From Flavobacterium chilense (GTDB lineage: Bacteria; Bacteroidota; Bacteroidia; Flavobacteriales; Flavobacteriaceae), in the NCBI RefSeq assembly GCF_001602525.1, contig NZ_LSYT01000013.1, positions 62,001 through 126,000 of the forward strand: DNA of 64,000 nucleotides, read 5' to 3'. Position numbers and translations under genes: made by a program. The notes beneath the pieces were generated by a model. The model did not search any database and was not told where the DNA came from. It saw only the letters and a program-made list of their open reading frames with translations. Below are positions 3,908 through 52,904 of the stretch, one piece after another (the stretch's first letter is position 1; every line of letters starts with the position of its first letter).

Positions 3908-3962
3908 CTCAAAGTGTTAAGGTTTTTTGAAGCAGAAATTTAAGGTGTTTTAATAACCATTT

Positions 3963-4028
3963 CTCCCGCTATACACTTGTATCTTTTTTGCAGAAAAAGC
4001 AAAAAAGGATACCGTTGCTATCGGGGCT
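3963..4028. repeat. dispersed palindromic intergenic repeat, copy 1
   Basis: A 66-base element in the gap after lysS resembles the one at 52811-52880. Shared blocks are the left edge (CTCCCGCT here, CATCCGGCT there), the centre CTGTATCTTTTT / TTGTATCTTTTT, the complementary AAAAAGGAT, and the right edge ATCGGGGCT / ATCCGGGCT. The centre folds as a T-rich/A-rich hairpin. Such elements recur between genes in flavobacterial genomes from memory. A short open frame here is treated as spurious. Confidence 0.7.
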
Positions 4029-4211
4029 ATATCAGAAGATTAATTTTCAAAATGCATTCTGGGCTGAAATGTTTATTTTACAGAAAAAAAGTAATCATAA
4101 CCATAAAGCTTCATGGAGTAAAAGATTAAGATCAAATAAAAATTTATGTAAGAAAATATCTTTTAATACATATCTTAGCAAACTTAAAATCTTTAGAAAC
4201 TTTTTGTGCAA

Positions 4212-24346: not shown

Positions 24347-24354
24347 TACTTTTG
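24347..24354 (+). promoter_or_regulatory. candidate -7 promoter element of rpsU
   Basis: TACTTTTG matches TAnnTTTG. Start would fall near 24358, so the leader is about 26 bases and contains the strong SD site at 24368-24375. Confidence 0.55.
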
Positions 24355-24367
24355 CAGTCTTAACGAG

Positions 24368-24375
24368 AGGAGGTG
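24368..24375 (+). promoter_or_regulatory. strong Shine-Dalgarno sequence of rpsU
   Basis: AGGAGGTG (24368-24375) is complementary over eight bases to the anti-SD at the 3' end of 16S rRNA. It lies eight bases before the ATG at 24384. Other gene starts checked in the window (for example lysS, lipB, tuf, rplK) show no comparable SD. In F. johnsoniae the ribosomal proteins bS21, bS18 and bS6 hide the anti-SD, and the SD of rpsU is thought to allow autoregulation by bS21. The sequence here fits that idea. Confidence 0.85.
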
Positions 24376-24383
24376 TCTATATT

Positions 24384-24578
24384 ATGTTAATTATACCAAT
24401 TAAAGACGGAGAAAATATCGATAGAGCATTAAAGCGCTATAAAAGAAAATTTGATAAAACAGGAACTGTTCGTCAATTAAGAGCACGTACTGCTTTTATT
24501 AAGCCATCAGTTATTAAAAGAGCTCAAATTCAAAAAGCAGCTTACATTCAAAACTTGAGAGATAGTTTAGAGAGTTAG
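24384..24578 (+). CDS. rpsU: 30S ribosomal protein bS21
   Basis: The protein has 64 residues, rich in Lys and Arg, with the bS21 signature RALKRYKRKFDKTGTVRQLR. It is part of the small ribosomal subunit near the anti-SD of 16S rRNA. In Flavobacterium it contributes to occlusion of that anti-SD. The leader carries the only clear SD I see in the window. Ends in a terminator (24602-24640). The rest of the block (xerC, hpf, tRNAs, tuf) lies downstream, separated by that terminator. Confidence 0.96.
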   Translation: MLIIPIKDGENIDRALKRYKRKFDKTGTVRQLRARTAFIKPSVIKRAQIQKAAYIQNLRDSLES

Positions 24579-24601
24579 TATTTAGCTTTTCAAAAATAAT
24601 T

Positions 24602-24640
24602 ACCGTTAGTTGTCGAAATTTTGACGCTAACGGTTTTTTT
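24602..24640 (+). terminator. intrinsic terminator after rpsU
   Basis: ACCGTTAG (24602-24609) pairs with CTAACGGT (24627-24634), with further inner pairing GTC/GAC and a trailing run of T to 24640. Confidence 0.8.
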
Positions 24641-24723
24641 ATGCTTAATTTTGAGGTGGGCAAGTAAGGAATTCGGGTTGTTTTTTTTATGTTGTGTAAT
24701 GTAGGGAGAAAAGAGTTTGTTTT

Positions 24724-25617
24724 ATGAAATCAAATAAGGAAGCATTTCGTGATTATCTTCAGTTGGAAAAAAAATATTCAACTCATACGGTTAATGCTTA
24801 TTTGAGAGATATTTTGTTTTTTGAAACGTTTAATAAAGAACATTTTGAACAAGAGAATGTTGAGTATGTTAATTATAGTCAGATAAGGAGTTGGATAGTT
24901 TTGTTAGTTGATGCAGGTGTTTCTAATGTATCTGTTAATAGAAAAATGGCTTCTTTAAAATCTTTTTATAGATTCCTTTTGAAAACGAAGCAAATTGAAG
25001 TTAGTCCAATGCTGAAGCATAAAGCATTGAAAACTTCTAAAATTGTTCAGATTCCTTTTTCTGAAAAAGAACTGGCGGATTTGATGCAAGAAGTGGGTGA
25101 TCCGGTTGGTTTCGAGGAGGTGCGTGATAAGCTTATTGTTGATTTGTTTTATACTACCGGAATGCGGAGAGCTGAATTGATTCATTTGATGAAAGCGAAT
25201 GTTGATTTGTCTTCTAATGTGGTAAAGGTTTTAGGTAAGCGTAATAAGGAGCGTATCATTCCTGTTTTACCGATAATTGCTGAGCAGTTTAGTTTGTATT
25301 TGGCAGAGCGTGAATTGCTTGAAGAAATCGTTGATGGGGATTTCTTTTTTATTTCTCGAAAAGGGTTAAAATTGAGTGAATCTTTTGTGTATCGATTAAT
25401 AAATTCTTACTTTAGTAAAGTCTCTGAAAAAGTAAAAAAGAGTCCGCATGTGCTCCGGCATACTTTTGCGACTCATTTATTGAATAATGGGGCAGATTTA
25501 AATTCAGTTAAGGAATTATTAGGGCATTCAAGTTTGGCGTCTACGCAGGTTTATACTCATAATAGTTTAGCAGAGCTTAAGAAAGTGTATAATAATGCGC
25601 ATCCAAGGGGTGAATGA
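24724..25617 (+). CDS. xerC: tyrosine recombinase (XerC/XerD-like)
   Basis: The protein has 297 residues, the normal Xer length. The N-terminal SAM-like core-binding domain (EAFRDYLQLEKKYSTHTVNA) is followed by the catalytic domain. Catalytic residues are Arg148 (TTGMRRAEL), Lys172 (GKRNKE), His242 and Arg245 (SPHVLRHTFATH), His268 (LLGHSS) and the tyrosine nucleophile Tyr277 (VYTH). XerC/XerD resolve chromosome dimers at dif. No mobile element surrounds it and it sits in the core translation block, so a chromosomal Xer enzyme is more likely than an integrase. XerC versus XerD cannot be decided here. Confidence 0.88.
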   Translation: MKSNKEAFRDYLQLEKKYSTHTVNAYLRDILFFETFNKEHFEQENVEYVNYSQIRSWIVLLVDAGVSNVSVNRKMASLKSFYRFLLKTKQIEVSPMLKHKALKTSKIVQIPFSEKELADLMQEVGDPVGFEEVRDKLIVDLFYTTGMRRAELIHLMKANVDLSSNVVKVLGKRNKERIIPVLPIIAEQFSLYLAERELLEEIVDGDFFFISRKGLKLSESFVYRLINSYFSKVSEKVKKSPHVLRHTFATHLLNNGADLNSVKELLGHSSLASTQVYTHNSLAELKKVYNNAHPRGE

Positions 25618-25651
25618 TAATTCTGAAATGTTTAACCCAAAAATTTGTATT

Positions 25652-25954
25652 ATGAAGGTAGATGTTCATGCAGTTAACTTTACTGTTGACAGAAAATTGG
25701 TAGATTTTATTCAGGAGAGAATGGATAAGCTAGAAAAGTATTATGATCGAGTTGTTTCGGCAGACGTTTTTTTAAAAGTAGAAAGAACAAGTGATAAAGA
25801 GAATAAGGCAGTAGAGATTAAGATTAATGTTCCGGGGGATGATTTTTTGGTTAAAAAGCAGTGTAAAACATTTGAGGAGGCAATTGAGCTTTCGGCGGAA
25901 TCTTTAGAACGTTTGCTTGTAAAAAGGAAAGAAAAAATAAGAGCACATATATAA
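25652..25954 (+). CDS. hpf: ribosome hibernation-promoting factor family protein (HPF/RaiA)
   Basis: The protein has about 100 residues (MKVDVHAVNFTVDRKLVDFI), the short HPF type. The fold shows as beta-alpha-beta-beta-beta-alpha with the ending KQCKTFEEAIELSAESLERL. Such proteins bind the 30S subunit and stabilise inactive ribosomes in stationary phase. I use the ATG at 25652; an earlier ATG at 25595 would overlap xerC and add a non-family leader. It lies 34 bases after xerC and is probably cotranscribed with it. Its neighbourhood (rpsU, tRNAs, tuf, ribosomal proteins) agrees with a translation role. Confidence 0.9.
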   Translation: MKVDVHAVNFTVDRKLVDFIQERMDKLEKYYDRVVSADVFLKVERTSDKENKAVEIKINVPGDDFLVKKQCKTFEEAIELSAESLERLLVKRKEKIRAHI

Positions 25955-52800: not shown

Positions 52801-52810
52801 ATTAGAAGCT

Positions 52811-52880
52811 CATCCGGCTGTTCGCTGTATCTTTTTATTTTTAAAGAAAAAATAAAAAGGATGCCGCTTCCATCCGGGCT
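52811..52880. repeat. dispersed palindromic intergenic repeat, copy 2
   Basis: A 70-base element with the same plan as 3963-4028. Left edge CATCCGGCTGTTCGCTGTAT, central T-rich/A-rich hairpin, and right edge GGATGCCGCTTCCATCCGGG. It lies in the gap between the convergent acnA and kelch genes. Confidence 0.7.
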
Positions 52881-52904
52881 AAGGCATTTGTTTTCAAAAG
52901 AAAA

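Follow-up and report, generated by a model that had tools for sequence, protein, structure and literature searches.

An extended Shine-Dalgarno sequence before rpsU in Flavobacterium chilense, a probable element of bS21 autoregulation

Introduction

Autoregulation of the ribosomal protein bS21 through the Shine-Dalgarno (SD) sequence of its own gene, rpsU, has been published for Flavobacterium johnsoniae (McNutt et al. 2023, PMC9976891), and the model goes back to Jha et al. 2021, as cited in PMC9976891 and PMC8710568. According to the accessible part of PMC9976891, the F. johnsoniae ribosome has the 3' tail of its 16S rRNA sequestered by bS21, bS18 and bS6. In ribosomes lacking bS21 the anti-SD is free, and these ribosomes initiate more quickly on rpsU and more slowly on mRNAs that have no SD. 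When bS21 is mutated or depleted, the output of an rpsU'-gfp reporter goes up by a factor of 3 to more than 4; AGGAGGU added to tuf brings no gain in output in the wild type, and reporters with an SD are sensitive to the loss of bS21 (PMC9976891). The same text reports that in most of 200 Flavobacteriales rpsU alone carries a strong SD, and that the F. johnsoniae rpsU leader is 25 nt long by its predicted start site.

The frameshift site of prfB (RF2), with its internal SD-like sequence, also involves mRNA-16S pairing in SD-blind ribosomes, but it acts in elongation and termination rather than initiation and answers to RF2 (PMC8710568, accessible part). The sequence AGGAGGTATCTTTGA occurs once in the genome studied here (locus L349, G000:C17:183637-183651), and the frame continues in +1 after a UGA; by its resemblance to the site in PMC8710568, this locus would be a prfB-type frameshift site.

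Here we analyze the rpsU leader in a 64,000-nt stretch of the Flavobacterium chilense genome (contig NZ_LSYT01000013.1), referred to as the window, and compare it with the F. johnsoniae system.

Results

The rpsU leader contains an extended SD

rpsU is single-copy in the genome. The features of the locus are as follows.

24347..24354, + strand: Bacteroidota-type -7 promoter box TAnnTTTG (TACTTTTG), with no clear -33 TTG, from reading the sequence
24359..24383, + strand: predicted 5' leader, 25 nt, unstructured, by analogy with the predicted F. johnsoniae start site
24365..24376, + strand: extended SD GAGAGGAGGTGT, 12 bp with the 16S 3' tail, from pairing energies
24384..24578, + strand: rpsU, encoding bS21 of 64 aa with Tyr54 present, from reading the sequence; 61 of 64 residues equal F. 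johnsoniae bS21 (PDB 7jil chain z)
24602..24641, + strand: intrinsic terminator-like hairpin followed by a T run, from the fold compared with shuffles

Positions 24365-24386 read GAGAGGAGGTGTCTATATTATG. A sequence-only reading of this DNA had placed a strong SD eight bases before the rpsU ATG, and this holds: the core AGGAGGTG lies at 24368-24375 and is separated from the ATG at 24384 by an 8-nt spacer, TCTATATT. The site was thus correctly located, but the match is longer than had been given, with a pairing of 12 bp rather than 8. The 16S 3' end of the same genome, which has one assembled 16S gene, is ...GGAACACCTCCTTTCT (tail GGAACACCUCCUUUCU), and the helix with this tail, GAGAGGAGGUGU at 24365-24376, consists of 12 consecutive pairs including one G:U. 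The pairing energy is -21.5 kcal/mol with a 14-nt tail and -20.9 kcal/mol with a 13-nt tail, which passes the -13 kcal/mol criterion of McNutt et al. 2023, as computed with an energy program that differs from the free_scan of that paper.

The leader folds more weakly than its shuffles (z +1.37). Downstream of the gene, 24598-24642 folds at -16.7 kcal/mol (z -5.70, a value that none of 200 shuffles reached); a consensus terminator scan restricted to loops of at most 8 nt did not have the 24602-24641 hairpin among its entries. In F. johnsoniae rpsU is transcribed alone; here the promoter box and the hairpin 3' of the gene suggest that rpsU is likewise monocistronic. All 180 related leaders have a TAnnTTTG box 27-32 nt ahead of the rpsU ATG; 32 of them were chosen by a pattern requiring TTTG. 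A TTG in the -33 zone is present in just 63 of the 180.

As for the surroundings (window 24384-25617), 176 of 180 related loci have a relative of the xerC-like ORF 24724 no more than 2 kb downstream of rpsU. The next ORF, 25595-25954, looks to us like a hibernation factor. The window further contains two Flavo-1 RNAs (RF01705), both on the minus strand, at 52807-52884 (75.4 bits) and 3958-4032 (64.2 bits).

Strong SDs are rare at other gene starts

We took a census of 662 ATG-initiated ORFs of at least 90 aa, defined by a simple ORF caller, in two contiguous 400-kb genome samples plus the window; this covers about 13.5% of the genome and the window, with 47 of the ORFs coming from the window and rpsU, being shorter, standing outside the set. 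The strongest SD among these starts reaches -9.9 kcal/mol. Energies of -5 kcal/mol or lower are found in 28 of the 662 SD regions, compared with 65 mock regions further upstream and 104 coding stretches, and SDs are therefore depleted at gene starts.

For the 47 ORFs from the window, no SD is stronger than the -7.9 kcal/mol of ORF 24724, directly downstream of rpsU. ORF 26542, which we take to be tuf, scores -0.5, and ORFs 9911, 31104 and 47585 score +1.7, 0.0 and +0.7 kcal/mol. ORFs 28688, 29157, 29869 and 30466, presumably rplK, rplA, rplJ and rplL, score 0.0, -2.5, -2.9 and -1.8 kcal/mol. There is no strong SD at rpsF (-0.6), rpsR (-0.5) or rplI (-4.8 kcal/mol) either, and rpsU is the strongest among the ribosomal protein genes scored, the others being these seven alone.

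Across the whole genome, the pattern GGAGGTGN{3,13}ATG gives 71 matches, equal to 72 SD/ATG pairs from 68 distinct GGAGGTG sites. With a crude gene-start filter, 60 of the 72 pairs lead into an ORF shorter than 40 aa, 8 lie in a frame open for at least 40 codons upstream, 1 lies inside a longer ORF in another frame, and 3 pass: rpsU and the loci L055 (-15.1 kcal/mol) and L208 (-14.6 kcal/mol). The latter two were rejected as gene starts, each having an in-frame ATG upstream, with GGAGGTG serving as Gly-Gly codons (SGGGKSM and AGGAERM) within a longer ORF. No second gene start with GGAGGTG was thus found genome-wide by this filter, which is blind to genes under 40 aa (60 of the 72 pairs). The shorter pattern AGGAGGN{3,12}ATG has 213 matches and its reversed control 329; since the control outnumbers it, such counts are uninformative when taken apart from gene context.

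These data agree with the earlier remark that other starts have no comparable match, both in the census and in the window, and the genome-wide SD count that had been proposed along with it did not reveal many other strong SDs.

The pairing partners are conserved

Compared with the F. johnsoniae ribosome (7jil), 61 of 64 residues are the same in bS21 (Tyr54 kept), 98 of 98 in bS18 and 112 of 113 in bS6. By whole-protein identity, the pocket proteins bS21 (with Tyr54), bS18 and bS6 of this genome are of the Bacteroidia type.

Leaders were also compared across Flavobacterium, as suggested in the sequence-only reading. All 170 distinct related leaders retain the SD helix, pairing with the tail of this genome at -19.0 to -21.9 kcal/mol, and the 80 named nearest relatives all fall between -19.0 and -20.9 kcal/mol. 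A leader pattern that does not require the SD is matched in 280 of 299 Flavobacterium genomes, with leader sequences seen for about half of the matches. At the family level, a looser pattern is matched in 124 of 159 genomes; the leaders listed are, by eye and uncounted, mostly of the GAGAGGAGGTT, GAAAGGAGGTTGTAG or GGAGGTGATGA types, and several small genomes have no SD in the rpsU leader (e.g. G302, G363, G379, G393, G446).

Some leaders with GGTGATA (L116, L123, L125, L126, G157, G094, G234) suggested covariation within the genus with a 16S tail GGATCACC. This was rejected, as every match listed has the tail GGAACACCTCCTTTCT instead (of 80 genomes, 63 gave a match and 17 did not); with this tail these leaders pair over 11 bp. 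Because the tail is invariant among the matches listed, it offers no covariation by which to test the pairing.

The leaders (window 24365-24376; L063-L142 and L218-L317) tend to have a single G:U, as GAGAGGAGG or GAAAGGGGG. Among 164 tree tips, 123 have the G at the third helix position only, 22 have the core G:U only, 17 neither and 2 both, and the two sites are negatively correlated on the tree (LR 37.3). We rejected energy tuning as the cause: the third-position wobble costs nothing (-20.9 vs -20.8 kcal/mol) and the double wobble equals the core wobble (-20.0 vs -19.9 kcal/mol). Nearest-neighbour pairing energies thus do not explain the pattern.

An upstream mini-ORF overlaps the SD in other Flavobacterium genomes

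In the window, the leader reads ACG AGA GGA GGT GTC TAT ATT ATG, with neither an upstream ATG nor a stop. Control by an upstream ORF or leader peptide was therefore rejected for the window; a start codon with its own stop ahead of rpsU occurs in other Flavobacterium genomes. Many relatives share the ACG that directly precedes AGAGGAGG in the window, some have AAG instead, and others ATG. An ATG abutting the rpsU SD is present in 68 of 299 Flavobacterium genomes, so that M-(R/K)-G-G-(V/A) is encoded over the SD; such leaders are among L218-L285 together with L069, L099, L102, L106, L113, L119, L128, L130, L133, L135, L136, L138 and L139. By hand reading, 53 of the 68 genomes have a stop at codon 6, 3-4 nt before rpsU. 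Many other genera (e.g. G357, G413, G450) carry AGGAGGTTAAG or AGGAGGTTGTAG, with TAA or TAG between the SD and the rpsU ATG and no upstream ATG.

Across 170 distinct leaders, the stop is found in 59 of 75 with the upstream ATG, against 3 of 95 without it. The 59 stops (27 TAA, 21 TAG, 11 TGA) always lie 3-4 nt before the rpsU ATG. The remaining 16 upstream-ATG leaders have no such stop, which makes the stop not indispensable; in 15 of them the upstream ATG shares the rpsU frame, so that bS21 would be longer by 8 residues, and in one it is out of frame. A Pagel-type test on an xerC tree favoured dependent evolution of upstream ATG and stop (LR 47.7, 4 df). By parsimony the two traits change about 15 and 17 times on this single-gene tree, a setting in which such tests can overstate. 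The tree had 164 tips (170 of 180 loci were distinct, 164 of these with a usable xerC), and a 174-tip version including duplicates gave the same result, as did an rpsU+xerC tree (LR 47.1). Frame-shifted controls were non-significant (LR 2.5 and 4.8), with 1 and 6 positive tips of 164 and hence little power.

With transcription from the predicted start site, about 5 nt of mRNA would precede the upstream AUG, which would be nearly leaderless; F. johnsoniae mRNAs are mostly leadered, 87% of them by more than 10 nt (PMC6847099, accessible part). The accessible parts of PMC9976891 and PMC6847099 do not mention a mini-ORF or upstream start at rpsU, and a search by title and the beginning of abstracts, mostly outside subscription journals and supplements, found no literature on one.

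Discussion

Together, our results suggest that the element in the window is very probably the rpsU translational autoregulation known from F. johnsoniae. The two loci share the gene, near-identical pocket proteins, an extended SD beyond -13 kcal/mol, a single outstanding gene (here among the starts scored) and a short leader, which in this genome is predicted. Nothing functional was seen to differ; bS21 differs at 3 of 64 residues, and the system is known here from its sequence. The sequences show the 12-bp helix and how rare it is, as well as the conserved tail, the pocket proteins and the conservation of the leader; that the leader responds to bS21 in this strain we infer from F. johnsoniae.

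By this mechanism, bS21, bS18 and bS6 of the complete ribosome would keep the 16S 3' tail in its pocket and make the ribosome blind to SDs, so that ordinary mRNAs here would do without one. In a ribosome lacking bS21, the freed tail would form the 12-bp helix with 24365-24376. This would promote translation from 24384, and bS21 would be made until ribosomes are complete again. The feedback by bS21 through the rpsU SD, as previously proposed for this DNA, is consistent with the published F. johnsoniae mechanism and with the required sequence features found here, but the sensor would be the ribosomes lacking bS21 and not free bS21. The short leader, once thought ideal for such a switch, is not what makes it, because with a leader of the native 25 nt output was about 6-fold higher while the response pattern stayed virtually identical (PMC9976891, accessible part).

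In many bacteria initiation benefits from a strong SD, and the rpsU SD might simply give high constitutive translation; sequence alone indeed proves no feedback. Such an SD would make little sense of the depletion of SDs at other starts here, nor of F. johnsoniae, where SDs are not generally used and SD reporters respond to bS21 loss (PMC9976891, accessible part), and we regard constitutive translation as very unlikely. That the purine stretch is a chance match or a functionless promoter-proximal relic has practically no probability left: we found no point in its support, none of the 662 sampled starts comes within 11 kcal/mol of rpsU, and the conservation of the helix in all 170 distinct leaders while adjacent bases vary already contradicts it. 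The leader might also be constrained by more than SD pairing, for instance by a reading frame over the SD as in relatives. The abutting ATG in 68 of 299 genomes and its correlation with the in-frame stop on the tree favour this. Against it, the window reads ACG at this position and lacks an upstream start, and the stop is missing from 16 of the 75 distinct upstream-ATG leaders. We consider an additional constraint unlikely. Autoregulation through the extended SD remains our preferred explanation of the window.

The mini-ORF of the relatives can be read in two ways. The stop may do no more than guard against a lengthened bS21 at any locus that gains an upstream AUG on which SD-blind ribosomes initiate. 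Alternatively, the mini-ORF may have a part in the bS21 switch, as a decoy or for reinitiation. Either reading implies that the upstream AUG is used. It is tempting to speculate that SD-blind ribosomes start at the AUG-(R/K)-G-G-(V/A)-stop mini-ORF and cover the SD or reinitiate weakly, and that ribosomes lacking bS21 bind the SD directly, a scheme we hold to be rather improbable at present.

The finding in the window is in itself already known: the observation is confirmed and its interpretation supported. Among published examples of specialised ribosomes in bacteria the rpsU leader is the clearest, and an intact switch here would extend the described mechanism to another strain, adding nothing in principle. 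If the mini-ORF scheme were true, it would be a second arm of the bS21 switch, with two kinds of ribosome competing for overlapping starts on one leader of 25-30 nt. If the upstream AUG is really used, these would be natural sequences that show SD-blind and SD-reading ribosomes competing on the same leader.
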